From Bacteroidales bacterium (GTDB lineage Bacteria > Bacteroidota > Bacteroidia > Bacteroidales > UBA932), in the NCBI GenBank assembly GCA_017630215.1, contig JAGBVR010000009.1, positions 62,001 to 126,000 of the forward strand: a stretch of 64,000 bases of DNA, written 5' to 3'. Below the pieces are notes generated by a model that was not told where the DNA came from, made no database searches, and worked only from the letters and a program-made list of their open reading frames with translations. Shown piece by piece: positions 7,194 to 62,369 of the stretch; position 1 is the stretch's first letter; every line of letters begins with the position of its first letter. The translations under genes were made by a program, and so were the position numbers.

Positions 7194-9610
7194 TAAAGAT
7201 TAATTCCCATTGCCTTGAAGTACACCTCCACTTCACCACTTAACGAGATAATATCTTCGTTTATTTTCGGAAGAGGCTTTGCGTAACGTTCATTGAGCAC
7301 TGATACCTGACTGGATATTGATTCGCAGACACGCTTATTCTCTGCTTCGCTTCGAGTGCAAAGTTCTTGTAGCCATTTGTCATAGATTACGAGGTCGCGA
7401 ATCTCCTCTTCATTGAGGGCATCGTACTTTCTACGTACATTTTCCGTGAGCTTATCTATGAGAGCATATAATACTTTGGCAGCCTCTTTCTTCTTAGCGC
7501 AGAGGTCCAAATACTTGTTCCATACTTTTACTACCTCAGAGTCGGCTTCAATCGTGTGTTTCTTCTGGGCTGCAACCGCCTTCTTGACATTTGCTTCATT
7601 CACCTTCTCTAACATCTCAAAGAGTCCCTCGTCAAAGGCATCGGGATTCTCTTCTGGTAGAGCCTCAATTTCACCGCCAAGTTGTTCTACTTCAACACGT
7701 TTTACAAGTATATCGGCATGTTCAGCAGAGAAGAATTTGTTCACTATCACCTTGACAGGTAAGAGATCGCACTCAATATCCTCAAAGGTCGATTTCTTTT
7801 TGGTGTCACGTAGGGTTACCTTCCAACCGTCACGACTAACCATATAACAGTCATCCTGCATTGCTTCTACCCAGTAATTCATGAGTATCTCGTAGACATT
7901 GTAAGGGTCAACCAGTTTCAAACCGGCTTTTGCTCCTTCCAGAAGCATTTCGCTCCAACGTTCAATGAGAGCCTTAGGTTCACATTCTTCCTTTACAGAT
8001 GTTAGCATATCTACAGATGCCGCTTTGCACCAGTCTTCGACGATCTTTGCGTACATGGCATTCTGTCTTTGGTATGAACTGTCTGCATTAACTGCCTCGG
8101 AGATACCATCTGCTGAAGGTACTAGACTATAATAGCCGTTTGACTCCTTATGGAACAGGCAATCTTTTAGGCTTGGACAAGCATCCCATAGAGGGGCCAG
8201 CACCTCCTCTACATCGTGAGCAGGCAGACCACCGTGCAGGTGAGCGTAGATGTCCTGGCGGATTTCCTTGTCCTCTGGGATTACATAGCGAGGGATATTG
8301 AGGTTATACTCGTTGGCAGCAATCTCTTCAAAAGAAACAAACTTGGCATAATGCAGTACATCAGACTGTGATTCCCAGGTGTCCACAATAAGCTTGACGT
8401 CCTGCTCTCTGAGTCTATTCTTTGCCCCGTCTTTCTGGAAACCTTCTTTCGCGTCGATCATGAATATACCCTTTGAGCTTGCCGCATGTTCCTTGTCGAT
8501 GATGATGATGCACGCTGGGATTCCGGTGCCATAGAAAAGGTTTCCTGGCAGACCAATGATGCCGCTGATCCAATGTTTCTTCACAAGGAACTTGCGAATC
8601 TCGGCCTCTGCTCCCCCACGGAAGAGTACACCATGAGGCAGAATACATGCTGCATGACCTTGTGTTTTGAGTGAAGCTATGATATGAAGGAGGAATGCAT
8701 AATCCCCACATCCAGGAGGTGGTACCTGTGCGAGATTGCCGCTTGCACCCCATCTCATGAATGTATCGTTCGCTTTTGCGGACTTCATCCAGCCTTTTGT
8801 TGAAAAAGGAGGATTAGCTACAATATAGTCAAATGTCTGTAGGGTAGTGTCGTTCTCTTTGTGCAGTGGGTCATTCAATGTGTCACCATGTCTGAGTTCT
8901 GCATCATCTACCCCGTGAATGATCATGGACATTCTGGCCATACCGATTGTGGCAAGGTCCTTTTCCTGTCCGTCGATGCTGGCATTGTTTCTTGCCTCAG
9001 CCCTGGCACGGAGAAGGAGTGAACCTGAACCGCAGGTAGGGTCGTATATGGAGATCATTTGTCGGTCATCCTTGTTGATGCCGATAACTCTAGCCATGAT
9101 GCGGCTGACTTCTGCGGGTGTATAGAACTGGCCCTTGCTCTTTCCAGATTCAGAGGCAAAGTTCTTCATGAGAAACTCATACGCATCTCCAATCAGGTCA
9201 TCATCTGCAGCACGATTATTTGAGAAATCCAACTCGTCCCTTTGAAATACTTCTATAAGTTTGCTGACCGTCTCGATGAGGTCTTTTCCCTTGCCGAGTT
9301 TATTTTCGTCAGCAAAATCAGCATTAGTTATCACCCCGGTTAGTCCGTTGGCATCGGCAAGTTTTGCGAGAATCTTATTCATCTCTTCGCCAATGTTGGT
9401 CTTTCCCTTGAGTGCAATCATATCGTCAAACGAGCAGCCCTCCGGTACTGATATGAGCATGTCCGGATCTTTCTTTGCCTTGTCACTTATGTACTTGACA
9501 AAGAGAATGACCAATACATAATCCTTGTATTGACTGGAGTCCATGCCGCCTCGGAGTTCATTGCAACCCTCCCATAGGGCACTATAAAGTTGAGATTTCT
9601 TAATTGCCAT
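7193..9610 (-). CDS. hsdM: Type I restriction-modification methylase subunit M
   Basis: N6-adenine methyltransferase that protects host sites and forms the core of the restriction complex. Counting from the upstream Met at 9634, SAM motif I is DPTCGSG (198-204) and catalytic motif IV is NPPF (274-277). Both are intact. The N-terminal four-helix region has the family sequence LRGGMDSSQYKDYVL. At about 805 residues it is longer than classical HsdM (about 500), because a C-terminal coiled extension rich in Lys and Glu follows the methylase domain. The start at 9610 (MAIKKSQLYS) matches the usual family N terminus. An in-frame ATG at 9634 is the alternative. It heads the operon hsdM-hsdS-hsdR-M48. 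Confidence 0.95.
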   Translation of the reverse strand: MAIKKSQLYSALWEGCNELRGGMDSSQYKDYVLVILFVKYISDKAKKDPDMLISVPEGCSFDDMIALKGKTNIGEEMNKILAKLADANGLTGVITNADFADENKLGKGKDLIETVSKLIEVFQRDELDFSNNRAADDDLIGDAYEFLMKNFASESGKSKGQFYTPAEVSRIMARVIGINKDDRQMISIYDPTCGSGSLLLRARAEARNNASIDGQEKDLATIGMARMSMIIHGVDDAELRHGDTLNDPLHKENDTTLQTFDYIVANPPFSTKGWMKSAKANDTFMRWGASGNLAQVPPPGCGDYAFLLHIIASLKTQGHAACILPHGVLFRGGAEAEIRKFLVKKHWISGIIGLPGNLFYGTGIPACIIIIDKEHAASSKGIFMIDAKEGFQKDGAKNRLREQDVKLIVDTWESQSDVLHYAKFVSFEEIAANEYNLNIPRYVIPEDKEIRQDIYAHLHGGLPAHDVEEVLAPLWDACPSLKDCLFHKESNGYYSLVPSADGISEAVNADSSYQRQNAMYAKIVEDWCKAASVDMLTSVKEECEPKALIERWSEMLLEGAKAGLKLVDPYNVYEILMNYWVEAMQDDCYMVSRDGWKVTLRDTKKKSTFEDIECDLLPVKVIVNKFFSAEHADILVKRVEVEQLGGEIEALPEENPDAFDEGLFEMLEKVNEANVKKAVAAQKKHTIEADSEVVKVWNKYLDLCAKKKEAAKVLYALIDKLTENVRRKYDALNEEEIRDLVIYDKWLQELCTRSEAENKRVCESISSQVSVLNERYAKPLPKINEDIISLSGEVEVYFKAMGINL

Positions 9611-9698
9611 AGTGTCTGTATCGATGAATGCCAATGGCTGTTATTGTCAGCCATCATATTCTAGGTTCTAATTTGTTTAGTGGTGATTATTTATCTTC

Positions 9699-9706
9699 CA
9701 AATTTA
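9699..9706 (-). promoter_or_regulatory. Candidate -7 box for the hsdM operon
   Basis: TAAATTTG on the minus strand matches TAnnTTTG exactly and lies 65-90 bases upstream of the possible hsdM starts. No clear -33 TTTG was found at the expected spacing, so support is partial. The rest of the 9635-9900 intergenic stretch holds the SNF2 promoter and no recognisable gene. Confidence 0.45.
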
Positions 9707-9904
9707 ATTATTTTCTTCTTATAAATACCCTACGTGAGCGATAAATGTTACAGATTACCACTCAATGTTGGCGATTTTGACAGGTATGTGTCAAAAGTCC
9801 GTCTTATATTTTTAGCCCTCATAGCTTGTAACAAAGAGCCAGACCATCAGTATATACAGGAAGAAATACAACAGGTTACACACTGATTTAGCAATCTGCC
9901 ATAA

Positions 9905-9930
9905 TTTGGCACATAGGCACATTACTTTTG
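9905..9930 (+). promoter_or_regulatory. TTTGGCA-N11-TAnnTTTG promoter of the SNF2 operon
   Basis: TTTGGCA at 9905-9911, 11 bases, then TACTTTTG at 9923-9930, leaving 14 bases between the TTTG and the -7 box. The likely ATG follows at 9948. The same layout occurs at five other places in this window, always upstream of a gene. An ACAGGTTACA sequence at 9871-9880, shared with the region upstream of the RNA gene at 40721, lies further upstream. Confidence 0.65.
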
Positions 9931-9947
9931 CACCATATCCCAATCCT

Positions 9948-12900
9948 ATGACTGATAAGAAACTACAAGAGCACTTTCCTGACCTGAGCGTGATAGACTT
10001 CAAGCTCCTGTGTAATATTGCGTACCATGGTGAGATTCCGGGCAGCTATACGCTTAGGAATATTGCGTCGCGCTCAAGAGTGAACGTGAATAAAATCAAT
10101 GAGTCCTTGGCTAGACTAAGGAATACCCCTTATCTTCAGGGCACGAAGGTGTCACCGCGCTATTTCTTCAAGGTAGTGAAGGTGATGATGGATAACATTC
10201 CTCAGTGGGAAGATTCCTTTAAGCGTATGCAACAGTTCCGTTACGAGACGGCTAAGTACCTATGGAACTTCGCTAAAAAGGTTGCTCATGAGAACTGGAA
10301 AGGTGCTGCATCTTTGAAAAGACCATCTATGAATTTTCAGAGATATGGTCATGATGAAAATGCCCTGAGCATGGAACGATATATCGGAGAGCTGGCAATC
10401 GATGAAGATAAATCGGTTCTTTTGAGGGTGCTCAACGACATTGAACTGTCACGTTTGATTGAGCAGATTCTTGAAGATCGGACTCAGGAGAACACTATAT
10501 CGATAGAGTTCATAGATAAAGTAAGGGACATGATGCAAAGGGAGAAAATCCGCTCCAATGAGGCAGAACATGTCCTTGAGGCTTATAGGTACTTCATCGA
10601 AGGAAATTATGTAGTATCACCTGCTCAGGTCAAATCTAAAGATAATATGCCGTCAATGTGGTCTTATGGAGTCAAGGCCATCAATCTGCTCTATCGTGAC
10701 CACCTGAAGGAATCTCTGGAATGCTTCACCGAGGCAATGCGAGAACATGATAAGGTCAGCAGAATCCCAGGATCATTCGACAGTCAGATTCTCTCGTTCT
10801 ATTATGCCATATGTCTTATCAGATGTTCTAAGTCTGCGATCTTCACAAGGCGAGATCATATTGACGAGAAGCTTGAGAAGTTCTTAAAGAATAGAGACGT
10901 GTATTACGGAAGGAAGCTTGCCGCAACACGTATTCTCCTTACCTACGCAAAGAATGAAAGTACACAATGTGCATCTTTCGTAGCGAAGGAGGTCGCAACG
11001 ATGATACAGGAGGATAATTGCCCTCTAACTAGAATCTTTGCAGATATTCTTACAGGCTATTTCAAGTGTAATGAGAACAGTCTAGCTTCAGAGATGCCTG
11101 CCCTTGGTGTTCTCAAGCATGAACTCTCTACTTTCTATCCGGTAGGAACGTTAAATAAGAATGAACTGACCAAAGCTTTCGGCGGACAACCGCTCCTTAA
11201 CACTACACGAAGACGTGATGACTGGGAGATTCTGTTCAGTGATATTCGAAAGAATCTTATTGAAGGACAAAAGGCGGAAAGAAGGCTTATCTACTTTCTT
11301 GATGGCCTGTGGTTGAAGAATATCGTTGAGCAGACCCGTCGTGATGACGGATCATGGGATTCCGGAATCTCAGTTTCACGCAAACAGTTTCTCAATGAGG
11401 GCTTTGAATCCATGAATGAGGCTGACAGGAAGGTGGCTGCCAAGATGAGGGTAAGAGTAGTTGACAAGCCAGAAGCATCCATACTATTTGAGGAACTCGG
11501 TGCAAGTGAACGTCTTTTTGTCGGAGAACCATATACTCAGCCGTTCCAACCAGCTGAAGTGGAGGTGGTAATGCCTTCGATTAGGTTTAAAACAATCGGA
11601 AGTGAGATCTACGTGTCTTCTAACGTCTCTTTGGATAGTAATCTGAGAATACCAGATAAGTGTATCGTCTCGACGGAGGAGTTCGGAAAGTATAAGGCTA
11701 TAATGCTGAACGATTTGCAGAGGGATGTGCTTACAAGAGCATTGTCTTCTCCGGTTCTGCCAATTCAGGCTGCTGCGGAGGTGAAGATTCTTTCAGAACG
11801 TCTGGAAGGTATACTGGATGTGGAGTGTGAACTTATGAATGCGGACTGCATTCAGACAAGAGAAGGTACCGGCACCATTGCCATACGAATCACTCCAGAC
11901 GAGCAGAACAAGAACTTCAACGTTCAGATGCTTGCTGCACCCCTTCCCGAGGGTCAGGTCAGATTCCCTGCAGGAGAAGGGGAAGATATTATCTATGATC
12001 AGTGTGACGGTCACACAATTGCGGTAACTCGAGATCTAGCAACAGAGCAAGTGAATTATGAACTTCTGCATAAGTTTGTCTGTGATGAGATCGGAGATGT
12101 CTTTACAGACTTCATGACTGCAGAACTCTCTTCTCCGCAATCTTTGCTGACCCTGCTAGAGTTCGCGTTCGAACATCAGAGTACATATATGCTTGAATGG
12201 CCATTAGGTAGGGAACTTAAGTTCAAGGGTGTGATGAAGCCCGCTGATGTAGATGTGCAGGTGACAACCAATATGGATTGGTTCAAGGTTCAGGGAAACG
12301 TGCATATCCCAGGTACCACCTGTTCATTTGAAGATCTGCTGGCAATGTATCGTCAGGCTGAGTATGACGGATATATCAAGATCGGAGACAATGAGTTCAT
12401 GAAGATGACAGAGGCTCTGAAGAAGAATATCGAGCAGCTGGACAACGTCATAGCAGGATACGATAAGTCATCAAAAAGCCAGCTTGTCGGTAAGTATGAT
12501 GTGGGACGTCTGGCTGAGATACTCGGTGATGATGGCGGTCTGCATGCGCAGATCGACGAGGATTTCATCGGTTTGCTCAAGAAAATGCGTGAGGCATATG
12601 ATTCAACTCCTGAAGTCCCTGCAACCTTGAATGCAACACTCAGAGACTACCAGAAGGAAGGATTTGAGTGGATGGCACGCCTTACCAGCTGGGGAGCAGG
12701 GGCCTGTCTTGCTGATGATATGGGACTTGGAAAGACTATTCAGACTATTGCCTTAATGCTTCATAGGGCAGAGCAAGGCCCATCACTGGTTGTTGCTCCA
12801 AAGTCTTTGATACTGAACTGGGAGAATGAGCTGCATAAGTTCGCACCAACCCTCAATCCTGTTAACTTCAATAACGAGAAGAATAAAAAGCAGGCTATTG

Positions 12901-14028: not shown

Positions 14029-14544
14029 ATGGAAGTTTTTCTTGAGATATTGGAAGAGGAACTGGAATCAGTTCTTGCTGGTAGTGGATTCAGAGTTATA
14101 GCTGTGGATGATGGTGATTCATATGTGGCAAAATTGCTTTTGCCATCAGAATTCATGATTACGTTCAGAGTCCCTAAGGATGATAAGGTCCTTATGAAAA
14201 TGTGCGAAAGCGTAGACAAGGTGATACAGTTCAAGGATATGTACATGGATGGGGCGCTTAGTCCCGGAATAGCTAAGGCTTTTCTTGATCTGCCAGGTGT
14301 TTTCACCTTTGTTACTGATGAGATAGACATCCGTGCCAAGAGGCTTATAGGAATACTTATGGAAGACCTGTACGGAAGACATAATATCTATGCCCTGAAC
14401 GTAACAGAAGAATGTGTCCGGGTAGATACACGTGGTGGGAGGTTCTACTTCCATTATACTGATTTTAATATAAGCGTGAAGAAGGAGCTTGAGTTGATGG
14501 GGAAGACGATGCGTAAACCTTTAAGAAAACGATATCAGAAATGA
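14029..14544 (+). CDS. Small two-module alpha/beta protein (window-wide family)
   Basis: A 171-residue protein with no family I recognise. Two modules can be seen, each a helix, a set of short beta strands and a closing helix: roughly residues 1-75 and 95-160. This is the layout of the small proteins at 35-36 kb and 43-48 kb. Similarity here is mainly structural and weak in sequence. It starts 5 bases after the SNF2 stop and overlaps the MoxR start by four bases, so it is co-translated with them and may be an adaptor of that complex. Confidence 0.75.
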   Translation: MEVFLEILEEELESVLAGSGFRVIAVDDGDSYVAKLLLPSEFMITFRVPKDDKVLMKMCESVDKVIQFKDMYMDGALSPGIAKAFLDLPGVFTFVTDEIDIRAKRLIGILMEDLYGRHNIYALNVTEECVRVDTRGGRFYFHYTDFNISVKKELELMGKTMRKPLRKRYQK

Positions 14545-15908
14545 CGACAGATATAAGAAACAGAATCAAAAGTCTCATAGGCGAGATGAGCCGTGGAGCA
14601 TTCGAGAGGGAAGAGGCAATAGCTCTGAGCCTCTTGAGCGCCTTTGCCGGGGAGAGCATCTTTCTGCTTGGTCTCCCCGGTGTCGGAAAGAGTATGATAG
14701 CCCGAAGACTCAAGAGCGCCTTTAAGGGTAGCACCTGCTTTGAATACCTCATGAGTAGATTCAGTACTCCGGACGAGATATTCGGTCCGGTCTCAATTAG
14801 TAAGCTCAAGGATGGAGATACCTACGAAAGATGTATCGAAGGTTACCTCCCCACTGCTGATGTGATTTTCCTTGATGAGATATGGAAGGCAGGACCTGCC
14901 ATTCAGAACTCGCTCCTGACAGCCCTTAATGAGAAGATCTTTCACAATGGCAAGATTGATATCCAGCTTCCGCTCAAGGGCATCATTGCCGCATCCAATG
15001 AGCTACCAGCAGAGGATGAGGGGCTTGAGGCGCTCTGGGACCGTTTCCTTATCCGATATATTGTTCAGCCAATTGGTAAGAAAGATGCGTTCATGAGACT
15101 CATTGGTGAAAATCCTGAGAAGTTTGTCATACCATATGAGCTTCCCATTACATCAAAGGAGTATAAGGATATCCAACCGGAAATAAGTAAGGTAAGCGTC
15201 CCTGGTATTATCATGGAATCTCTCTATGATCTTCGCTGCTTATATGCTAAACGCTTTGCCAATAAGGATGAATCGGAAGATAATAATGAGATAGGATGTC
15301 CCTACATTTCAGACCGAAGATGGAAGAAGATGGTCGGAATACTTCGTACTAGTGCATATCTAAATGGACGAATGACGGTAGATTATAGTGATTGTCTCTT
15401 GCTCGAACACATGCTTTGGGATAAGGATACTCAGCTGCCTATGGTAATGAAAGATGTTTCAGAACTGGTGGCTGGAGGTGTGGCCAGACAACATCAGCTC
15501 GCAAGAAGAAAGGGAATGGAGTTGGAAGAGTGTATGAGTATAAAGGATAGTTGCTATACCATCTCTGCAGGACGGGAAGATCTTCTTATTAGTAAAGAGG
15601 ATTATGAGAAGCTTGAAGGTGGAACGCCGGCATATGGCCGATTCACCGAAGGTAATAGGATCGCTGTAAACTTCGACGCTGGAGACTTCAGATTGAAATG
15701 TGACAGGACAGGAACCCTGACAATCAACTCTTTTACATATCAGCTGAGGAAAAAAGGAGTACATAACCCTTCGAATCTTTCAGATTATACTGGAGTGCCT
15801 ACCTCAGTCAGTGAACTTATAGTGGACAATATCTTCCTCCGCGACGGTATTGATAATTATCCATATCTGAGTACTAGCGTGAACAAGTATAAGAGTCTAC
15901 ATAAATGA
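14541..15908 (+). CDS. MoxR/RavA-type AAA+ ATPase
   Basis: AAA+ ATPase of the MoxR group, a family that remodels or chelates metal into partner proteins together with VWA proteins. The Walker A box GLPGVGKS is at residues 44-51 and Walker B VIFLDEIWKA near 108. The sequence following each P-loop motif resembles E. coli RavA. The C-terminal third is variable and may hold a beta-rich partner-binding domain. The start overlaps the previous gene by ATGA, and the stop overlaps the VWA start by ATGA. This is the first of two MoxR-VWA pairs in the window; the second is at 43309-45520. Confidence 0.9.
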   Translation: MTTDIRNRIKSLIGEMSRGAFEREEAIALSLLSAFAGESIFLLGLPGVGKSMIARRLKSAFKGSTCFEYLMSRFSTPDEIFGPVSISKLKDGDTYERCIEGYLPTADVIFLDEIWKAGPAIQNSLLTALNEKIFHNGKIDIQLPLKGIIAASNELPAEDEGLEALWDRFLIRYIVQPIGKKDAFMRLIGENPEKFVIPYELPITSKEYKDIQPEISKVSVPGIIMESLYDLRCLYAKRFANKDESEDNNEIGCPYISDRRWKKMVGILRTSAYLNGRMTVDYSDCLLLEHMLWDKDTQLPMVMKDVSELVAGGVARQHQLARRKGMELEECMSIKDSCYTISAGREDLLISKEDYEKLEGGTPAYGRFTEGNRIAVNFDAGDFRLKCDRTGTLTINSFTYQLRKKGVHNPSNLSDYTGVPTSVSELIVDNIFLRDGIDNYPYLSTSVNKYKSLHK

Positions 15909-17413
15909 AATACTCAGGATATATAGATGGTCTGCTTGCTGAAGCTCTCTTTGCCAAGAAGACAGGGGACTTTGACTGGCTTGCACAGATGCTCAGCAAA
16001 GAGAGGGATCCTATCAAGAGGATTCTTCTGGAGGAGGTGTGCAAAGAAAGCTTCATGGAGCATGTCCGTAGAGAAGGAGGATGGATAAAGGAGCAGAAGA
16101 TACGTCTTGAAAGTATAGCCCTTGGGGAAATAGAAGATGGAGCAACTGAATTTATCGGGGATCAGATGGATAAGGATGACAGTGGGCCAAAAGATGATGA
16201 ATGTGAGAATGAGCTTGACCTGGAACATAAGGGTGACGATGAAAATGATGCGCAAGATCAAGGAGATGATTCTTCGTCAGAAGGTAAAGGTTCAGGTAAT
16301 AATAAATGTGAAGATGAACCTGATATGCAATCAGGCCAACCAAGTGCTTTAACTCGCCAGCAGATAAAGAAAATCCAGGAGCCACTCTATAAGGATACCC
16401 CTGAACAGAGGTGGGAACAGATGCGCAAGCAGGCTATTGATAAGTACAAGGAGAAGCTGGATAGGAAGTCGTGGGAGAAAGCTATGAGAGAATTTCAGTA
16501 TAATCCTTCACGGATGCCAAACACGAACTCGGGAAGCTCGTATTTGGGAATTGGCGGTGGAGAGGGAGAGTTATTACAAGCAGAGAACCGAATCCTATCA
16601 AAAATCCCAGATTCTTTAAAGAAGCTAGCCAGAAAAATTGGCCGAACTGGTGGGTTTGATACTTTGCCAGGGAAATCTTTCAGTCGGGCTTCCAAGAGTG
16701 ACATCAGTGGTATTACAGTAGGTGATGATCTCAATTCTCTGTTGCCATCAGAAGTGGCATTACTTTCAGATAAGAGAACTCAGGATGTCTTTTATAAGAA
16801 TTATGCTGAAAAACGACTACAGGTGTTTGCCTCAGCTTCTTCTGGGGAACAGAAGAAAGAGCGTAAGGATGGTCCCGTGATTATATGTTTGGATACCAGC
16901 GGCTCAATGAGTGGTGAGCCGGCAGCAATAGCGAAGATGCTGACTGTTGCTGTATCCATTTATGCTATGCGTCGCAAAAGGAAGGTCCTTGTCATTAAGT
17001 ATTCGAATGATTACGCTTGGCAGGCATTCACCAAGCGCAAGGCTGATAGAACAGCACTGATGAATTTTCTCCAGTGGTTTGGCCATGGTGGTAATGATGA
17101 GAATACGATGTTTAAGTTCCTATTCAATGAGCTTCTGCCGCAGGAGGCAGCATTCGATTCGGCTGATATACTATGCATTTCTGACTTCGGTTGGGTCCCC
17201 TTAGATGAGGATGTGAAGGAACTCATAGAAAAAGCGAAAACTGGCGGAATGATGTTTTATGGACTGGTCGTAGGGGTGTACGATGACTTTGATTATTTCT
17301 CTGGGAAAGCTATTTCCAATTGCGACTCCAGGTGGCAATGGAGAAATGGTGAATGTGTGAATATAGATGACAAATGCAAGTGCTCAGAGGAAGAATATTC
17401 TGAAGATATGTAA
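15905..17413 (+). CDS. VWA-domain protein, partner of the MoxR ATPase (ViaA-like)
   Basis: A 502-residue protein with an acidic low-complexity linker (about residues 80-140) and a C-terminal von Willebrand A domain. The metal-ion-dependent adhesion site DTSGSMSG is near residue 329. In RavA-ViaA and related pairs, the VWA protein is the partner or substrate adaptor of the MoxR ATPase. It ends the SNF2 operon, and no signal peptide or transmembrane segment is seen, so action in the cytoplasm is expected. The last 20 residues are Cys-rich and acidic (CKCSEEE). The link to SNF2 is the unusual point. Confidence 0.88.
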   Translation: MKYSGYIDGLLAEALFAKKTGDFDWLAQMLSKERDPIKRILLEEVCKESFMEHVRREGGWIKEQKIRLESIALGEIEDGATEFIGDQMDKDDSGPKDDECENELDLEHKGDDENDAQDQGDDSSSEGKGSGNNKCEDEPDMQSGQPSALTRQQIKKIQEPLYKDTPEQRWEQMRKQAIDKYKEKLDRKSWEKAMREFQYNPSRMPNTNSGSSYLGIGGGEGELLQAENRILSKIPDSLKKLARKIGRTGGFDTLPGKSFSRASKSDISGITVGDDLNSLLPSEVALLSDKRTQDVFYKNYAEKRLQVFASASSGEQKKERKDGPVIICLDTSGSMSGEPAAIAKMLTVAVSIYAMRRKRKVLVIKYSNDYAWQAFTKRKADRTALMNFLQWFGHGGNDENTMFKFLFNELLPQEAAFDSADILCISDFGWVPLDEDVKELIEKAKTGGMMFYGLVVGVYDDFDYFSGKAISNCDSRWQWRNGECVNIDDKCKCSEEEYSEDM

Positions 17414-39940: not shown

Positions 39941-40024
39941 CGGAATTATTATGAAAAAAAGACGGTGAAGCATCTCTGCCGCACCGCCTGAAACAAACAA
40001 CACTATGGAACACAAACTGTTCTA

Positions 40025-40762: not shown

Positions 40763-40945
40763 TTAAAGCACCTGAGGACATTGGTTAATCGCATGTATAA
40801 GCACTAATTGTTTTGTTTCTGTGCCCAAACGTAAATCATTATGTCTGTGGCGAAAGCCAACCAGCGGTGGGCAGACATAAAATACCTCAGGCTTTAAAAG
40901 CCTTCGATCGCCTTGATGGCCCGAGGTCCTAGGTGCTTTTTTTAT
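40763..40945 (+). ncRNA. Structured ~180-nt RNA gene preceding a reverse transcriptase
   Basis: A closing stem joins 40765-40779 (AAAGCACCTGAGGAC) to 40926-40939 with a single bulged G, 14 pairs, ending in seven T (terminator). Inside, in order: GCAC/GTGC hairpin (40801-40824), a stem ATGTCTG/CAGACAT (40841-40847, 40872-40878) enclosing a GNRA hairpin TGGC-GAAA-GCCA and a CCA/TGG hairpin, then the hairpin AGGCTT/AAGCCT (40889-40903) and GCC/GGC (40911-40920). No protein is encoded. The RT gene starts right after the terminator (40955). The whole resembles the RNA genes of retrons and defence-associated RTs, but no known RNA family is recognised. Confidence 0.72.
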
Positions 40946-40954
40946 ACGGTATAT

Positions 40955-42676
40955 ATGCAGATGAGCTTCTTAGAATACTTGACAGAGGATAACTTGATCG
41001 AATTCGTCATCAAGGAAAGGGTCAAGTGTACCCAGAAGCAGAATCTGAATAAAGATAGAGTCCAGCATATAGAGCAGGCGCAGACACCTGCGGCCGCGGT
41101 GCAGGCCATGACTCCTCCGCGCAACTTATGGAGGAGGCTTCGCAGATCCAGCAGACATAAAATTGATCGAGTAGAGATCAAGAACAAACTATCCCTGAGG
41201 AATACCATCTACTATGACCTGAAGCTATACAGAAACAATATGGTCATAGCGCCGCCATACCTTCAGGAACTCATGGCATTCATTTCTCGAGTGCAGGAGA
41301 TGGCATCAGATGTTTCTACTTGGGACTTCTCATCCTGCATTAAAGTGATTGCTCAGTTCAAGGAAGATGATGCTGATGGAAATGCGATATATCGTCCGCT
41401 AACGATATACAATTCCTTGGAGATAAAAGCCCTCATCTCACTCGCAAGTACATACCTTACAACTGCGGTTGATGATTATCTCCATGAAGAGATTCTCTCT
41501 TACAGACCTCTAAGGTTATATCACGGAAAAGAGAATTATCATACTGGCGGCTATGATGCAATAGCAGGGCTCAGAAGATTCATTGAAGATCATCCTGGGC
41601 AGAAGATATATGTTGCAGAATGCGATATCCAGAAGTTCTATGATGCAATAAATCACGAGGTGGTTCTGGATAGCTTCAGAAGGATTGCCGAGCAGGCTTC
41701 TATTCCAGCCTACCATGAAGTGGAAAGGATCCTCAAGCTCTATCTTGATTCGTACAGTTTCCATTCAAATATCATGGCGCTGAATGATTCTCAGGAATAC
41801 TGGAAAGAGTACGAAAGACAACATAGGGGAAAGATAAAGGGCAAATGCCTCTTCAAGTGGGTAAGTGATGACGACTTTCTCAGATGTTATAAGGATCCCG
41901 CTAAACTTGAATTCTATAAGGACAAGATAGGAGTGCCTCAGGGAGGAGCATTATCTTGTATCATATCAAATGTAGTTCTGAATGAAGTGGACAGAAGATC
42001 TGTCCTAGTGAAAGAAGATCCTGACAGATTCTTCGTAAGGTTCGGAGATGATATACTTCTTACGCATACAGATCTACAGGAGTGTACAAGACTTATAGAT
42101 GCTTATACACGAGAACTGGAAAGACATCTGTTGCCGTCACATCCGTTCAAGCCGATGGACGAATGCAAGAACGGAGAAAAGACTACAAAAGAGTTCTGGA
42201 AGCGTAAATCAAAGGCACCGTTCCTCTGGGGACCTGGCGAGGGAAATGCCTTTGAATGGATTGGTTTTGTTGGGTACGAAGTAAGGTATACAGGTGAATC
42301 ACGCCTGAGACTCTCGACTCTTGATAAGCAGTTCGGTAGTATCAACAAGAGATATCACTCCTGTATTCTTAAGGATAAGCCCAATAACACAAGAGGATAC
42401 TTGTCTTCCAATATAAGGAAGGTTGCAGGTATGAATACCTCTTTGAGCAAGTTCGAGCAGCTCGATATGAATCCATATTCTATCCAGCAGGTAAAGAGCT
42501 TAGATCGATACAGGCTTACAAAGATCGAACGTCTGGATGCAATGTTATCCGCCAGATTTGCTCAGGAGTATACCGACACAACTGCAAACCTGGTAAATCG
42601 TTTCGTGAAGCATAGGGATGAACCGACCAGTTATTATAGAAGATTGATGGAAATTGATTCCACTCTTAATGACTAA
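40955..42676 (+). CDS. Reverse transcriptase, non-retron, defence-associated or unknown-group type
   Basis: About 573 residues (ATG 40955; 40961 is an alternative). RT motifs in order: RPLTIYNSLEIKAL, VAECDIQKFYDAI near residue 220, GVPQGGALSCIISNV near 325, and the catalytic FGDD near 362 in place of the YADD typical of retrons and group II introns. There is a 190-residue helical C-terminal part but no maturase X domain, no endonuclease and no intron RNA. This is how the unknown-group RTs of defence systems look, several of which (for example DRT2 and DRT9) also use a neighbouring RNA. Group assignment was not possible by eye. Confidence 0.85.
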   Translation: MQMSFLEYLTEDNLIEFVIKERVKCTQKQNLNKDRVQHIEQAQTPAAAVQAMTPPRNLWRRLRRSSRHKIDRVEIKNKLSLRNTIYYDLKLYRNNMVIAPPYLQELMAFISRVQEMASDVSTWDFSSCIKVIAQFKEDDADGNAIYRPLTIYNSLEIKALISLASTYLTTAVDDYLHEEILSYRPLRLYHGKENYHTGGYDAIAGLRRFIEDHPGQKIYVAECDIQKFYDAINHEVVLDSFRRIAEQASIPAYHEVERILKLYLDSYSFHSNIMALNDSQEYWKEYERQHRGKIKGKCLFKWVSDDDFLRCYKDPAKLEFYKDKIGVPQGGALSCIISNVVLNEVDRRSVLVKEDPDRFFVRFGDDILLTHTDLQECTRLIDAYTRELERHLLPSHPFKPMDECKNGEKTTKEFWKRKSKAPFLWGPGEGNAFEWIGFVGYEVRYTGESRLRLSTLDKQFGSINKRYHSCILKDKPNNTRGYLSSNIRKVAGMNTSLSKFEQLDMNPYSIQQVKSLDRYRLTKIERLDAMLSARFAQEYTDTTANLVNRFVKHRDEPTSYYRRLMEIDSTLND

Positions 42677-55604: not shown

Positions 55605-56879
55605 CTACTTTTTTTCTACTTTTAACCTATACGGGCCATTAGAGACACGTTTAATATTCACCTTTGTCTTTCTAGGGTTTAATGTCTGCCCTTCATTAAA
55701 GCCTGGTACAACTACTTTAGCATCCTGATTGTTTGAATCTTTTTTTTCTTCTTCAGCCCAGCATTTGTCACCATAGTGAAGAATTCCATCGGTTATCTTA
55801 AAGCTAACCCCAGCTTCAATATCATCCCTTAACTTGTATACCCTTTGCCTATTTTGGACAGGATTCGAATGTGAGTTCTTATATGCCGCCAAATACATTA
55901 TGATGTCACAGAGTTGATAGACCAAGAAGTAAGAACTATATATACCTCCTGTTTCTGTCGCATATTCCACACATGCCCTCTTTAGCTTAGACCACTCATC
56001 TTCTTTTATGAAATTTTCGTTATTGACACGCATAACATGTGAATCAGTAACTGTTGTATATAGATATATGGTCTTCAGGTTCTGCGCCATAAGATAAGGC
56101 AATATAGGGCCTTCTATATCAATTACTCCAAATGCGTTATTTTTTATATCTTTCCCATACTCATTATTTGTCTGCTCTCCACAAAGATATAAAACAATAT
56201 CTCTTAGATTAAGCTCGTTTCCATCTTGTTTATAACACTCACTTGGAATCAACCCAACTTCTTGTCTTATAAGCGAATGGAAAAGATATTCAAGAACCTT
56301 TCTTAATTTAGCAATGCCAGGACGTTTGTTTCTATATTCTTTGAAATGGAACGCCTTAAGAAAACCCAAGAGAATTTCTTGACTTTCTTCATTAAGATCG
56401 AGATGTTTTGTTGCCTCAAAAACTTTTGGATACATATCCATTACGGCACGATCTTCACGTGTTGATGCTAACTTCTTGATGTCCTCTATCAGTTGCTCTG
56501 TTCCCTCCCATCCTTTTCTATATATGGGAATGTCTCTGTATGAATTTATAAATTCTTGATTATCAAATAACTTTATCTGGCCGGTAAAGATAAATATTGG
56601 TAAATTTATGTTGTTTGTATAAGCTATCTTTTGAATCTGTTGTATAGCATAATTCAAACCAGACTTATCCCATCCAGCTCCTTCATTAATATATCCTACA
56701 GCGTCAAGTAATGCCAAATCCCATGCTCCTGGATTATCCTTAAGACGCTCTACGAATTGTTCTGCGTATTTCTCAGCATGTAATACGATACCTTCGTCCT
56801 CAAACTGGGCCCTCCAGTCTTCATTAGAAAGCATCTCCTCTGACTCATCATCTAACCAAAGTACTTTAATCTCGTTCAT
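55605..56879 (-). CDS. Receiver-domain protein with unknown C-terminal domain
   Basis: A 424-residue protein. Residues 1-125 form a response-regulator receiver: acidic pair D10-D11 in LWLDDES, phospho-acceptor D59 in LALLDAVG, T99 in FIFTG and K122 in YRKGW. The remaining 290 residues are mostly helical and match no output domain I recognise (no DNA-binding HTH). It starts 14 bases after the kinase-methylase fusion, so it is very probably its phosphorylation partner and the effector. Confidence 0.85.
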   Translation of the reverse strand: MNEIKVLWLDDESEEMLSNEDWRAQFEDEGIVLHAEKYAEQFVERLKDNPGAWDLALLDAVGYINEGAGWDKSGLNYAIQQIQKIAYTNNINLPIFIFTGQIKLFDNQEFINSYRDIPIYRKGWEGTEQLIEDIKKLASTREDRAVMDMYPKVFEATKHLDLNEESQEILLGFLKAFHFKEYRNKRPGIAKLRKVLEYLFHSLIRQEVGLIPSECYKQDGNELNLRDIVLYLCGEQTNNEYGKDIKNNAFGVIDIEGPILPYLMAQNLKTIYLYTTVTDSHVMRVNNENFIKEDEWSKLKRACVEYATETGGIYSSYFLVYQLCDIIMYLAAYKNSHSNPVQNRQRVYKLRDDIEAGVSFKITDGILHYGDKCWAEEEKKDSNNQDAKVVVPGFNEGQTLNPRKTKVNIKRVSNGPYRLKVEKK

Positions 56880-56893
56880 TCCTTACTATTCTT

Positions 56894-59596
56894 TTAGTAT
56901 GATCTGATGCCTCGCCTTTTTCTATATTTAGATAATAGATTATCAACTACTTTTTTTACATAGTCAACATTAACTACTCTCTTACCATTCTCATCCAATG
57001 ACGTGATGTCATTGATCCAGTGTATATCTTCTGGGGGGTCACTATGATATGGACGACCATCCGAATCGATGTAGATGTTATCATCGTCATCCAAATCATA
57101 TCCATAATCTTGAAGTGGGATAATATATACTTCTAACCCTTCTTCCCAAGTAATATCAAACCCAGTATTTATAATGTATTCCTCATATTCAATATGGTCG
57201 TTAACTATACCATAAATGGTGTCAAAGGCATACTCCTTCATAAAGGTAGTCTCGTCAAAGGCAATGACGGCAGGGAAGTATATCATTACCCGTGTCTTGC
57301 TATATTCGCCTATTTCATCTTTTACTGAATGTGGAGCTTCATATCCTCCACCGAAATGCCTTGTCATTTCGCTTATATATGCTCCGCCGAGTCCTTCTCC
57401 TTTTGAACCCTTGACATCTGCATGCCAGCCTGACATTCCGAACTGGGCTTTTGTCATTTCAGGAGCTGGATATCCGTTATTCTCGAATACGAAGCATACT
57501 CGGTGACCTCCATCCTCATTTTCGTCACAATAAACTCTGATGTTGAGATAGTAGTCTCCTCTGTTTGGGTCTCTGAATCCATGCTTCTCCGCATTGCTGA
57601 TGATATTTTCAACTACCTGACTGAAATCATCTGGGTTGACATTTATTGCAAACTTAGCTTCAATATCATCAAATGTAGCCATGTCAAGATTGTAGGAAAG
57701 CGTATAATTCTTGACTGCTCTATTAGATTCAAGATTCTTAAAAAATTGATCGAAACCAAACTCTCTTGTCTCTTTGAATTGATTTTCATCTGCGATTCTA
57801 TCTAATCTTCCATCAAGATCCTTCCAGTAGCCGACTAATCTGTTGACTCTGTTGAACAATGCCTTTACATCAATCTCTCCTGTCTGGTTCGATTGCTCTA
57901 CTTGCTTTTGTAGTTGTCGGATACTAGCTGATATATTTTCTCTGACTGTACCAAGATTGTGTTTCTTTGTTCTAATAAGTGTTTTGTACTCGTTCTTGAG
58001 CCTTTGCACTTCTTCACTTAATCCCAACTCTTTAATCTTGGTTAGCTTGTTCGCTTTAATCGTGTCCTCTACAATCCTTCTCTGTTCAGGTAATGCAGGG
58101 AATGATATAGGATAGTTAAGTATATATGTGCGTGATAGTGCAGATGAACTTAACCCCTCAATAGAGCGCAACTTGAAGATCAGATATTCCGGATCAATAC
58201 GACTCTCATCTACCTCTAGAATCATTAGCAAATTGTCAGCATAGATTTTACTTCCTTCTGTATGCTTATAGTATGCTGCACTTAAACGACGTCCGCGCGG
58301 AGCTATCAGTACACAAGATTTCTCAAGTTCGACACAATTCTTATGATATGCCTCGCGGTTTGGTTCTATTGTGTCAATATTTATTTGGAATTCAGTAAGG
58401 TTCTTCTCAAGGTGAGTCGGTTTTAATAAAACGATATTTTCCACTTCTCTCATCCTTACAGGTGTCATCACTTGAAGCTTGTATGGAGAAGTCAATTCCT
58501 TTAATGGATATGCTTGATAACCTTCGGGTAATGATTCTACTGGCCTGAGATAGGCTTGAGGATTGAGGTTGAAATTCTCTTCGGCAATAAGCTCTAAAGA
58601 GACCTCAGTCTTATTATCTATGTGGCCATTTGTAATATCGTCTAAAAGCCTAGAAGAATTTAGGATGTTGTGTCGCGAATTACTAATATGATAATACTCT
58701 GTTCCACTAGCATCCATCATCGTTACAGGCTTACCTTCAGGTCTGTCTTTTTCACATACGAGAACTGCAACATTCACCCCTGTTCCCATAAGCATTGAAG
58801 AAGGAAGAAGGATTACTTTATCGAGGAGGTTCCTTTCGACAATTATGTTTGCCCTGTTTCTTGAGTTGAATAATCTTCCTGTAGGTACAACGAAAATGGC
58901 CTTACCATGAGGAGTTAGACGATAGAAATACTCCTCAAGGTCGATATCAAATTCTCTTGATAAGGAGATGCTGACAAGATTTTCATAAGAATATATCTCA
59001 TTCTGCTCATGATGTGTGCAAGTATAATTTTTTGATGGCAACTTATCATGTAATAGCATCTTGGATATTCCGATATACCACAATATCTCATCTTGGGTTG
59101 TGCCAAAGTAATCATTGCCAATGTTGAGAACACTACCAATTATACCTTCTCCTGCATTTGGATTGTATACTACTCCGCCACGATAATCTAGAAGTTCTAC
59201 TAATAATTCTGATAATTCTTGAGTCGGAGTAGGGTCTTCATAACGCATTTTCTTATCGAGAATAGCGTCCAGAACTCTTTGACACTCATCAGTGGTTAGA
59301 TGGTGATGTGTTAACTCATTGTATATCTCATTTATGGCTGGAGCATTGTCTACTTCCCCTATCCAATATTTTCTTACTTCTGACCAAATTTTTTCTAATA
59401 GGTATGACTTGTAGCTATTCTCACCTATGCGATCAAAACTACTATCTACTGGATATATGCGTTCTTTAAGAAATACAAGGATAGATGTCTGAATTTTTAT
59501 GACTTCATCGGCCATCAATCCATATTTGTATGAATCAATCTCACGCAATCTTGCGTAAATATTATTAATAACTGATCTCCTATCGTTCAGATTCAT
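56894..59596 (-). CDS. Inactive HsdM-like methylase plus specificity-like domain fused to histidine kinase
   Basis: A 900-residue fusion. Residues 120-310 follow an N6-adenine methylase fold, but motif I is YNPNAGEG (144-151) instead of DPxxGSG and motif IV NPPF is replaced by SISL (209-212), so it should not methylate. Residues 360-525 resemble an HsdS target-recognition half with LPEQRRIV (502-509). A coiled segment brings H546 in KKHNLG, a likely phospho-acceptor His box. The GHKL ATPase then has the N box VVENIISNAEKHG (661-673), G1 ENNG (705-708) and G2 GEGLGG (733-738). An acidic Tyr/Asp-rich tail ends the protein. It looks like a DNA-reading sensor kinase. Confidence 0.85.
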   Translation of the reverse strand: MNLNDRRSVINNIYARLREIDSYKYGLMADEVIKIQTSILVFLKERIYPVDSSFDRIGENSYKSYLLEKIWSEVRKYWIGEVDNAPAINEIYNELTHHHLTTDECQRVLDAILDKKMRYEDPTPTQELSELLVELLDYRGGVVYNPNAGEGIIGSVLNIGNDYFGTTQDEILWYIGISKMLLHDKLPSKNYTCTHHEQNEIYSYENLVSISLSREFDIDLEEYFYRLTPHGKAIFVVPTGRLFNSRNRANIIVERNLLDKVILLPSSMLMGTGVNVAVLVCEKDRPEGKPVTMMDASGTEYYHISNSRHNILNSSRLLDDITNGHIDNKTEVSLELIAEENFNLNPQAYLRPVESLPEGYQAYPLKELTSPYKLQVMTPVRMREVENIVLLKPTHLEKNLTEFQINIDTIEPNREAYHKNCVELEKSCVLIAPRGRRLSAAYYKHTEGSKIYADNLLMILEVDESRIDPEYLIFKLRSIEGLSSSALSRTYILNYPISFPALPEQRRIVEDTIKANKLTKIKELGLSEEVQRLKNEYKTLIRTKKHNLGTVRENISASIRQLQKQVEQSNQTGEIDVKALFNRVNRLVGYWKDLDGRLDRIADENQFKETREFGFDQFFKNLESNRAVKNYTLSYNLDMATFDDIEAKFAINVNPDDFSQVVENIISNAEKHGFRDPNRGDYYLNIRVYCDENEDGGHRVCFVFENNGYPAPEMTKAQFGMSGWHADVKGSKGEGLGGAYISEMTRHFGGGYEAPHSVKDEIGEYSKTRVMIYFPAVIAFDETTFMKEYAFDTIYGIVNDHIEYEEYIINTGFDITWEEGLEVYIIPLQDYGYDLDDDDNIYIDSDGRPYHSDPPEDIHWINDITSLDENGKRVVNVDYVKKVVDNLLSKYRKRRGIRSY

Positions 59597-59777: not shown

Positions 59778-61514
59778 GTGCAGGCAACGAACCAAATGAA
59801 CAGAAGACCGAAAAGCAGAAGAGCAATGAGGGATTTAGATCCAACAATGATGGAGATCAGGGAAGCAAGAGACAAGGATACGATGTCAACATCGGCATGT
59901 CTCAATAGAATCATGTTGAAGGTAGAGCAGGAGTCATTTTGTGATGCAGTAAAGCAGGAGTTAATGGGTGACTTCGATTATGTGCAAAAGATGCTCGGCA
60001 TCTGTCCTGAAGAGGCAGCTATACTTTCATGCGTTTTGGAAAATAGTAATGGATTCCACACATGTGATGATGAGGATTTGGCGCGCTTCATGGGATGCAC
60101 TAACATCGAGTTTATCAGCTTCCGACAATATCTTGATACTCTGGCACAGAAAAGAATCGTGAGAATCGCAAAGAATCGTGGTGGTATGTCATACATCGTC
60201 CTTAAAGAAGCATGCAGGGCAATTATCGATAATGCTGAATTCTCAGAGAAGAACTTTGCTGGACTTACAAGCGAAGAAATGTTTTCACAGATGCGTAAGT
60301 TGTTTACTTCTCTTCGCGAGGAGGAAATAACAGAAGATATGCTTCTTACAGACCTTAATATGCTTGTAGATGTTAATCCCCAGAACATCTTCAGCCAGAG
60401 AGTAATGGATTGTGGCATCCGTAACTTCTCGAGTGACGAGCAGCGCATTTTCTATTACCTCTGTCATAGATATGTCAGCTTTGGTGATAAATTTCTTCCA
60501 TTCCATCAGTTTGGTGAACTTATTTCCGATAAGGAAGATGAACAGAAGTTCTTCAGACACTTCCAGGCTGGAAAGATGAACTCTCAGATTCATGGCATCA
60601 TCTGCTTTGGTGGTGAGGATGGTCTTATGGACAAAGGATCCGCAGGACTTTCTGATAAGATACGTGATACCTTCTTTACTGAAGTCGATCTCTTCTGTGA
60701 GGACCGCATTGAGGGGCATAAGGATCTTTTGAGCTGCGAAAATATCGTGGCGAAGGAACTCTTCTATAATGAACCTGAACAGATTCAGGTAAAGCGCCTT
60801 GAAGGCCTTCTTGAGGAGGAGAACTTTAATGGTGTCCAGACTCGTCTTGAGGAGATGGGCATGAGAAAGGGCTTTAACATCATCCTATATGGAGGCCCAG
60901 GTACTGGTAAGACAGAGACTACTATGCAGTTGGCAAAGAAGACAGGACGTGACGTGTTCTGCATTGACTTCTCTAAGATCAAGAGTAAGTGGGTTGGAGA
61001 TTCTGAGAAGGCAATTAAGGGCGTCTTCAATATCTATAGGACGCTCTGCAAGACAAAGCCAGTGAAGCCTATCCTTTTCTTCAACGAGGCAGATGCTATC
61101 TTTGGCAAGAGAATGGAGAATGTGGAGTCATCTGCTGCCCAGATGCTCAATACCATGCAGAATATCATTCTACAGGAGATGGAGAACCTTGAGGGTATCC
61201 TTATCTGTACTACTAATCTTCATGGTAATCTTGACTCGGCGTTCGAGCGTAGATTCATATATAAGATCGAGCTTGAAAAGCCAGGAGAGGAGGTGAGAGC
61301 GAAGATCTGGAACTCAATGATGAAGGAACTCCCTGCGGATGATTGCGCCATTCTTGCCCGCAGATACCCGTTCAGTGGTGGCCAGATTGAGAATGTGGTG
61401 CGTAAGAGTGCGGTGGAATACATCCTCTCTGGTACTAAGCCTACAGTCAATACCATCTGCAAGTTCTGTGAGGAGGAGAACTTCAAGTCAAAGGTCAGAA
61501 GAGTCGGATTCTGA
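59778..61514 (+). CDS. AAA ATPase, paralogue of the 30.8-kb gene
   Basis: A 578-residue ATPase. The AAA core aligns throughout with the 30820-32466 protein (GMRKGF, GPGTGKTET, FFNEADAIFGKR, NLDSAFERRFIYKIE, GGQIENV). The Walker B is again NEAD, with Asn for Asp. The N-terminal halves differ: here an Arg-rich start and a winged-helix-like segment. The ATG at 59778 may be preceded by a later start (59796). No paired gene is obvious, but a NADAR protein and a Cys-rich protein follow. Confidence 0.82.
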   Translation: MQATNQMNRRPKSRRAMRDLDPTMMEIREARDKDTMSTSACLNRIMLKVEQESFCDAVKQELMGDFDYVQKMLGICPEEAAILSCVLENSNGFHTCDDEDLARFMGCTNIEFISFRQYLDTLAQKRIVRIAKNRGGMSYIVLKEACRAIIDNAEFSEKNFAGLTSEEMFSQMRKLFTSLREEEITEDMLLTDLNMLVDVNPQNIFSQRVMDCGIRNFSSDEQRIFYYLCHRYVSFGDKFLPFHQFGELISDKEDEQKFFRHFQAGKMNSQIHGIICFGGEDGLMDKGSAGLSDKIRDTFFTEVDLFCEDRIEGHKDLLSCENIVAKELFYNEPEQIQVKRLEGLLEEENFNGVQTRLEEMGMRKGFNIILYGGPGTGKTETTMQLAKKTGRDVFCIDFSKIKSKWVGDSEKAIKGVFNIYRTLCKTKPVKPILFFNEADAIFGKRMENVESSAAQMLNTMQNIILQEMENLEGILICTTNLHGNLDSAFERRFIYKIELEKPGEEVRAKIWNSMMKELPADDCAILARRYPFSGGQIENVVRKSAVEYILSGTKPTVNTICKFCEEENFKSKVRRVGF

Positions 61515-61595: not shown

Positions 61596-61655
61596 TTTTA
61601 TACCCTAATGTTACCGACGAGTTTATCAGTAGTATGTATTAACAAACATACTTAC

Positions 61656-62369
61656 ATGAACAAGATACACTTCATCTATCAACAGCTTAAAGACGTAAAG
61701 CTTTTTGATTCTCTTTCCTCAGTAGTAGAATCTGTTGATGCTCTTATTCCTAGTAACGAAGAAGAGTTTACTGAGCTGCTTAAGTTCGGACTCTATCCCG
61801 CAGAGAATTGCCAACCTTTCACTACAAAGCAGAAGACTCCGTTCTACAATCTCGACAATATGGCAGTCATACCTCTTCATGAAGAGGATAAGTGGATGCA
61901 TTACGGTGACTTTAGATTCCGTCAGTTGGAGATTCTTTACAATATGGTACGTATGGACTCGGTTGAAGCGCATAACTGGCTCAAGGATAATCTCTTCCAG
62001 AAAAGAGTTGATGCTAGAAAGAAGACCGAGTATAAGGCAAAATTCAGAGGCCTACAGCGTAAGGATTGGAAAAGAATCCAGACAGAGTGGATGAAGTATT
62101 GCCTCAATCTAAAGTATAGGGATTTCGCTAGTTTCAGAAGGGATCTTCTCTCAACCGACAAGGTGCCAGTAGAAGATGCAACCTCTACTAATTATGCTTC
62201 TAACCTGTTCTGGGGAGCAAAGCTTGTCGAGGTTGATGGACGTAAGTACTACTTTGGATGCAATGTCCTTGGTAAGCTATTGGTCCTGCTTCGAGAAACA
62301 AAAGGTAGGATTCCTTATAGCCTTCCTGAGGATCTTCATCTGTTTGGTAAACCAATCCTTGCGATCTAA
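61656..62369 (+). CDS. NADAR-like protein, second copy
   Basis: About 237 residues from ATG 61656 (MNKIHFIYQQLKD), preferred over an upstream TTG-type start. Family blocks are visible in the second half: FRFRQLEILYNMV, WMKYCLNLKYRDFASF, FWGAKLVEVDGRKYYFG and CNVLGKLLVLLRE. The N-terminal 80 residues are not conserved with the first NADAR protein. It stands alone from an ART gene, so it may act in a general ADP-ribose removal or nucleotide role. Confidence 0.75.
   Translation: MNKIHFIYQQLKDVKLFDSLSSVVESVDALIPSNEEEFTELLKFGLYPAENCQPFTTKQKTPFYNLDNMAVIPLHEEDKWMHYGDFRFRQLEILYNMVRMDSVEAHNWLKDNLFQKRVDARKKTEYKAKFRGLQRKDWKRIQTEWMKYCLNLKYRDFASFRRDLLSTDKVPVEDATSTNYASNLFWGAKLVEVDGRKYYFGCNVLGKLLVLLRETKGRIPYSLPEDLHLFGKPILAI

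Follow-up and report, generated by a model that had tools for sequence, protein, structure and literature searches.

Defence-Associated Regulatory Pairs and Back-Up Systems

Several regulatory systems that act on or beside bacterial defences have been described, and they provide the frame for the gene pair analysed here, namely a histidine kinase fused to parts of a type I restriction enzyme (the sensor) and a receiver-domain protein encoded directly downstream. Both genes lie in a stretch of 64,000 nucleotides (the window) from a Bacteroidales bacterium (assembly GCA_017630215.1, contig JAGBVR010000009.1, positions 62,001 to 126,000). Regulatory pairs tied to defence are already known. In one study, adjoining genes for soluble kinase-like (HEF_HK) and receiver-like (Response_reg_2) proteins are enriched near restriction-modification genes, with examples from Bacteroides, and the kinases mostly combine HATPase_c_3 with HEF_HK, whereas those considered here carry HsdM and HsdS parts (PMC8011034). 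Moreover, HEF_HK (PF19191) had no match at E up to 0.1 in the window fusion and none in the 10 relatives scanned, and Response_reg_2 (PF19192) had none at E up to 1 in 20 receivers.

Detocs comprises three genes, the third of which encodes a receiver joined to an ATP-degrading effector. It shares with the present pair a defence-linked two-component signalling (PMC11249213). However, no further receiver–effector gene adjoins the window pair, which is flanked by a sigma-factor-like gene and by an AAA gene. PrrC, in turn, is a single nuclease protein and not a kinase–receiver pair. As an additional gene in an hsd operon that becomes active once restriction is disabled, it nevertheless offers a likeness: the PrrI hsd proteins keep PrrC silent for as long as phage T4 has not disabled them, a known back-up (PMC3710099). 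A kinase–response-regulator pair also acts on CRISPR-Cas expression (PMC8523701), and the kinase CapK and the repressor CapS lie upstream of diverse immune operons (PMC13373217). The latter system differs in that it reportedly responds to DNA damage by acting on a transcriptional repressor, and the text consulted mentions neither an HsdM nor an HsdS part. Among WYL regulators, BrxR and CapW are known to act on defence genes (PMC9122588, PMC9122601); they resemble the present case in the position of a WYL gene near defence operons and differ in that, in the units described below, the WYL gene is accompanied by a kinase–receiver pair.

No HsdM–HsdS–kinase fusion was found among the listed titles, opening lines of abstracts and passages of the open-licence literature searched, preprints and subscription papers lying outside this search. 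Set against that literature, what is new is a sensor made from a restriction core and the way in which it appears to plug into different operons. The reading favoured here, with a probability of about 0.6, is that the two proteins form a soluble two-component pair in which a restriction methylase–specificity (M–S) core serves as the sensor of a general ligand, with a role in or beside restriction. Pairs of this kind probably guard or control the restriction defence against viruses.

Composition of the Sensor–Receiver Pair

The two genes and the domains of their products are as follows, with the evidence in brackets (ORF, open reading frame).

56894 to 59596, minus strand: sensor of 900 residues, HsdM-like, half-HsdS-like and histidine kinase (ORF list, Pfam, PADLOC, phmmer, family profile)
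59240 to 59596, minus strand: sensor residues 1–119, aligned with the N-terminal part of HsdM, the most divergent portion of the family (alignments, family profile)
58535 to 59239, minus strand: sensor residues 120–354, methylase-like domain with motifs I–IV degenerate in the window copy (Pfam, motif alignment, profile)
58052 to 58534, minus strand: sensor residues 355–515, one HsdS-like target-recognition-domain half, conserved between close relatives (PADLOC, family profile)
57662 to 58051, minus strand: sensor residues 516–645, linker and DHp-like region with the presumed phospho-acceptor His546, codon 57961–57959 (phmmer, alignment)
57272 to 57661, minus strand: sensor residues 646–775, HATPase_c catalytic domain with N, G1 and G2 boxes (Pfam, alignment)
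55605 to 56879, minus strand: receiver protein of 424 residues (ORF list, alignment, profile)
56463 to 56879, minus strand: receiver residues 1–139, receiver domain with D10, D11, D59 (codon 56705–56703), T99 and K122 (alignment, profile)
55845 to 56462, minus strand: receiver residues 140–345, C-terminal domain with R193, E197, S280 and H281 (alignment)

Both ORFs are uninterrupted, and 14 bases separate the end of the sensor gene from the start of the receiver gene. An earlier note, made from the window sequence, had proposed a 900-residue fusion of HsdM-like, HsdS-like and kinase parts, and several matches bear this out. Within the sensor, Pfam N6_Mtase matches residues 223–352 (1.9e-13, above the cut-off) and HATPase_c matches residues 655–775 (2.5e-5; 25.1 bits, the cut-off being 26.4), the latter domain lying above the cut-off in 8 of the 10 relatives scanned. 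Methylase_S remains below its cut-off (0.049), and the type I specificity profiles of PADLOC match residues 354–535 (best 1.9e-7). In a phmmer search of PDB sequences, HK853-type kinases align with residues ~518–766 (best 2.2e-6), and a single structure of HsdM aligns with residues 215–354 (2.5e-4). A fusion profile built from 18 family members, the window copy included, matches among solved structures the HsdM of EcoR124II (1.2e-57, over approximately the first half of HsdM), HsdS (2.6e-14) and sensor kinases (7.4e-13). The sensor is thus made up of HsdM, one HsdS half and a kinase, so that the idea of a soluble kinase joined to a sensor of restriction origin is supported. The likeness to type I HsdM and HsdS lies in these profile matches across HsdM and a single half of HsdS, whereas the fusion differs from both in carrying a kinase, a non-canonical motif I and a recognition half that does not diversify. 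The window receiver alone has no Pfam match. When 20 members of the family are combined into a receiver profile, solved receiver structures are matched (1.7e-4), and these matches fall in positions 1 to ~145 of the 312 in the profile.

Signalling and Methylase Residues in the Family

The fusion is not a one-off, since at least 51 members were collected, nearly all of them in Bacteroidota; all family counts out of 51, 49 or 35 refer to the matches listed. The phospho-acceptor H546 is present in the window copy and, by alignment, in every one of the 51 fusions, and N668, N706, G708, G735 and G737 are kept in the window copy and in all 49 fusions that could be read at these positions, two rows being incomplete. 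The earlier note had likewise described a complete His box and a GHKL kinase in the window protein. The window receiver keeps D10, D11, D59, T99 and K122; D59 and K122 occur in 49/49 family receivers, all of which have T or S at position 99. Hence, the phospho-acceptor His, GHKL boxes, acidic pair, phospho-Asp, Thr/Ser and Lys by which two-component proteins are recognised in sequence are all in place.

The methylase part presents a different picture, described here with motif names and ligands as commonly assigned. In the window copy, motif I reads NPNAGEGIIG, T replaces E in motif II, H replaces D in motif III, and the position of motif IV is occupied by SISL. Motifs I and IV, which mark an active type I HsdM, are both gone, and by sequence the methylase part of this copy would be dead. 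The claim of a dead methylase made for it thus stands for the window copy and does not extend to the family, where a conserved dead motif IV had been named as support for the idea: 20 of the 51 fusions keep the motif IV consensus, and homologues of this kind had been named in advance as speaking against the proposal. The E of motif II is kept in 48/51 fusions and the D of motif III in 39/51. By the pattern used, motif I is canonical in 0/51 fusions, its typical form being NPFAGLASF, although the scan that supplied 35 of the 51 used two patterns, one of which contains NPFAG; among the 16 fusions from outside that scan the count is likewise 0/16. HsdM genes near the fusions have motif IV in 33/33 cases and, by the same pattern, motif I in 27/33. 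Judging from these alignments, the methylase pocket of the family appears altered yet largely conserved and, since the changed motif I is itself conserved, it may bind something, cofactor binding still being allowed. As a separate observation, the fusions of loci L096 and L102 are near-identical by eye up to motif IV and differ sharply thereafter (NPPF versus SPPL), as if by recombination.

Gene Neighbourhood and the Link to Restriction

The receiver gene lies directly downstream in 49/51 fusions, and at the remaining two the contig ends, the receiver partner reported for the window being thus conserved in relatives. In the contig scan, made without the receiver, it is the next gene at 33 of 35 loci, including L104, where the fusion is divided into two ORFs, and at the other two the contig breaks off; it is also next in 15/15 fusions from the other searches, ten of which had been found via the receiver. 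The gap between the two genes measures -25 to 16 bases in 44 of 48 cases, the others being -64, 47, 53 and 377.

On one strand or the other, a WYL gene stands no more than two genes upstream in 40/51 cases (27/35 in the scan, 13/15 in the others, none in the window). An HsdM gene follows within five genes downstream in 32/51 (25/35 and 7/15, none in the window), which supports a linkage to restriction operons, and an HsdR match, by a profile from only four sequences, appears within seven genes downstream in 12/50. These frequencies would also suit an expression controller, in which the receiver and the WYL protein would time or limit the expression of restriction genes while phage itself would not be sensed directly, and the WYL regulators, the CRISPR-Cas kinase pair and CapK/CapS would be precedents for it. 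Nevertheless, the window pair persists with neither WYL nor hsd neighbours, and the correlation between kinase and WYL is weak (0.21); this alternative is accordingly entertained only tentatively.

Around the window pair itself, a search for a linked WYL gene found its closest match in the genome ~100 kb away, and the 20 kb around that match contain no fusion. An ordinary set of type I hsdR, hsdS and hsdM genes with intact HsdM motifs (2746–9634) is located ~47 kb from the pair. A divergent AAA gene stands beside it (59778–61514; IetA profile match, 1.1e-28), and an AAA piece of 232 residues, 46.6% identical to this one, lies near the pair in L036 (14174–14887). A NADAR gene is also near (61608–62369), its match to the anti-phage NADAR model lying below the cut-off.

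Recognition Half and Input of the Sensor

The earlier note had proposed that DNA sequence or methylation state is the input. A reader of this kind, binding specific sites and reporting their methylation status, would agree with the M–S architecture and with the retention of motifs II, III and IV in the proportions given above, by which adenine and cofactor pockets may persist. Three tests bear on it. Firstly, the recognition half is not closer to the HsdS of its own neighbourhood than to others: the neighbour ranks first in 1/34 cases, with a median rank of 18.5 of 34, the window HsdS (~50 kb away) being counted as a partner. The pairing of the recognition half with the neighbouring HsdS was rejected (1271/2000 shuffles reach the observed sum), as was that of the fusion M domain with the neighbouring HsdM (1717/2000).

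Secondly, similarities were correlated in 26 units having all five genes, with shuffles that treat related units as exchangeable. Kinase similarity follows that of the receiver (Spearman 0.74, 0/1000 shuffles) and weakly that of the WYL protein (10/1000 shuffles); it follows neither HsdM (-0.04, 690/1000) nor HsdS (-0.11, 843/1000), HsdM and HsdS being correlated with each other (0.48, 0/1000). Thirdly, among 66 pairs of fusions with a kinase identity of 60% or more, only 2 fall below 45% identity in the recognition half, whereas whole HsdS is below 45% in 47/51 pairs whose HsdM is at least 60% identical. A type I HsdS has two diversifying target-recognition domains; by profile the fusion has a single half, which is conserved in close relatives. 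From these comparisons, the recognition half does not behave as a target-recognition domain. Moreover, the three tests indicate that the module appears mobile between unrelated hsd operons and that the input of the sensor is probably general. A specific DNA-sequence input, as originally stated, is thus unlikely, and the reader of sites and methyl marks is doubtful, as the window copy has, in addition, lost motifs I–IV.

A further alternative involves Ocr, which is described as a DNA mimic that competitively inhibits type I enzymes (PMC2806950). The sensor might act as a guard or decoy, mimicking the M–S core to which phage anti-restriction DNA mimics (Ocr, ArdA) bind and raising an alarm when restriction is blocked. 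This would account for the altered motif I, the conserved recognition half and the indifference to the kind of partner, as well as for the fast-diverging N-terminal region, where the 119 residues are less than 45% identical in 47/66 close fusion pairs and variation is also visible among eleven aligned close members. Ocr and PrrC offer precedents (PMC2806950, PMC3710099). However, the binding of a DNA mimic is purely conjectural, the N-terminal variation could have other causes, and many fusions retain conserved pockets for which a decoy would have no use, so that the guard is considered unlikely. Its more elaborate form, in which a mobile kinase with an M–S core as bait detects phage anti-restriction proteins and fires a second defence via a putative effector domain of the receiver, is likewise regarded as unlikely.

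Receiver C-Terminal Domain and Output

The C-terminal domain of the receiver carries R193 and H281 in 49/49 receivers, E197 in 48/49 and S280 in 43/49. This domain probably bears the output, because the window pair keeps it in a neighbourhood with neither WYL nor hsd genes. The same retention, together with the invariant R193 and H281 and the nearly invariant E197, would fit a toxic effector, possibly HEPN-like, which would turn the pair into a stand-alone abortive-infection system. Against this, no convincing Pfam match to the domain was obtained in 20 members, and a HEPN-like output was left unsupported by hhalign, which gave no significant similarity: the probability was 3.7% for a set of five proteins from DUF4145 and 0.4% for an equally small set from Abi_C, two families that we take to be of HEPN type. 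A toxic effector of this sort is therefore rated as unlikely. By eye, the R..LE and GSH patterns of the receiver resemble DUF4145. The tails of some receivers, e.g., L053 (9252–10424) and L055 (8818–10008), have a cold-shock/OB-type look by eye, with no supporting Pfam match.

Proposed Mechanism and Points Against It

In the favoured explanation, that of a two-component pair with a restriction-derived sensor, the M–S core (HsdM and half HsdS) would presumably be dimeric, and its helical end would continue into the dimerisation helix of the kinase. The binding of a general M–S ligand would alter kinase activity; the input might be DNA, whether methylated or not, a protein by which a phage mimics DNA, a partner subunit, or the state of the complex. 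Phosphate would then move from His546 to Asp59 of the receiver, whose conserved C-terminal domain would deliver the output. In most relatives, the pair is accompanied by a WYL regulator and stands ahead of type I restriction genes, whose kinds are unrelated, so that its job would be to control restriction or to serve as its back-up. The window copy would represent a diverged stand-alone pair.

Several observations weigh against this explanation. The HATPase_c score of the window protein falls slightly below the Pfam cut-off, and 35 of the 51 fusions stem from one scan seeded by four close members. The module does not always change its partner, as HsdM identity exceeds 50% in 9/36 of the closest unit pairs. 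Furthermore, the window pair has no WYL or hsd neighbours, and thus the operon argument rests on relatives that are at most ~24% identical to it over residues 120–770, the highest identity in the set. This isolation, added to the degenerate methylase motifs, could also mean that the window copy is a relic with no function; nevertheless, neither ORF is interrupted and the residues checked in kinase and receiver are retained, which makes a relic very improbable. Overall, the interpretation offered in the earlier note is upheld in its restriction-derived sensor, its receiver and its link with restriction, and falls short in the conserved dead motif IV and the specific sequence input.

Distribution and Variants of the Family

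The 51 fusions comprise the window copy, 15 from other searches and 35 among the matches of a scan of the contigs of named genomes, seeded with four close fusions; four of the 35 repeated earlier loci, and duplicates were removed before the figure of 51 was reached. The scan gave at least 38 loci, namely at least 35 fusions and three HsdM with no fusion. Queried with the window fusion, 115 of 393 genomes of the order matched (that of the window included), mostly over HsdM stretches only, and four loci besides the window (L003–L006) extended well into the kinase. The receiver profile matched 10/395 genomes of the phylum and 17/393 of the order, the window genome being included each time and five of the order matches being short. 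The named carriers of the fusion are presumably Bacteroidota, the exceptions by record label being one Leptospiraceae assembly (L094) and L085, labelled Bacteriophage sp. (label unverified).

In other phyla, searched with the receiver profile at E up to 1e-6, 8/349 genomes of the phylum of L127 matched; none of these matches goes beyond position 145 of the 312 in the profile, and they are therefore plain receivers. Matches were found in 41/149 genomes of the phylum of L094, two of them spanning most C-terminal positions (one being the L094 genome itself) and two further ones ending at positions 173 and 184. One unit is carried by a Myroides plasmid. A plasmid search with the window fusion gave 11 records, three of which are Myroides plasmids bearing the fusion; the search with the window receiver gave none and was insensitive, since those plasmids carry a family receiver that escaped it. 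Two scans of viral contigs found no relative, and a phage search gave six records, one of which (H12) spans the recognition half and the kinase.

Some members depart from the common plan. The fusion ORF of L122 (6799–11190) has 1463 residues, several hundred more than other fusions, and the fusions of L036 and L081 carry an N-terminal HARE-HTH. In L061 (1605–12241 and 15021–17375), a kinase (7759–10050) and a receiver of this family (10051–10974) belong to a CRISPR operon that includes a Cas10 gene and has an array of ~30 repeats. The sensor part of this kinase shows no known domain, and the assignment of other csm genes and of subtype III-A rests on the name of the Cas10a profile and on ORFs judged by eye. 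The sensor of L082 (3381–5615) opens with a PtuB-like HNH domain, by profile match, and a specificity-like region, and that of L084 (4762–6963) has the same front by eye. That the same type of pair occurs with parts as different as a Cas10-type CRISPR operon and a PtuB-like HNH domain suggests that the signalling cassette is a more general one.

Elsewhere in the window, a MoxR-type ATPase (bpMoxR profile) adjoins a vWA-domain protein (14541–17413), and an ORF with a reverse-transcriptase domain (PF00078, 2.2e-10) is located at 40913–42676. Rfam gave no match at gathering scores in positions 40000–64000.

Significance

If the favoured explanation is correct, these bacteria would possess a signalling system that uses the architecture of a restriction enzyme as its input and that can be attached to unrelated restriction operons. 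This makes testable the idea that bacteria may sense the working state of restriction, or its sabotage, beyond the DNA sequence of the invader.

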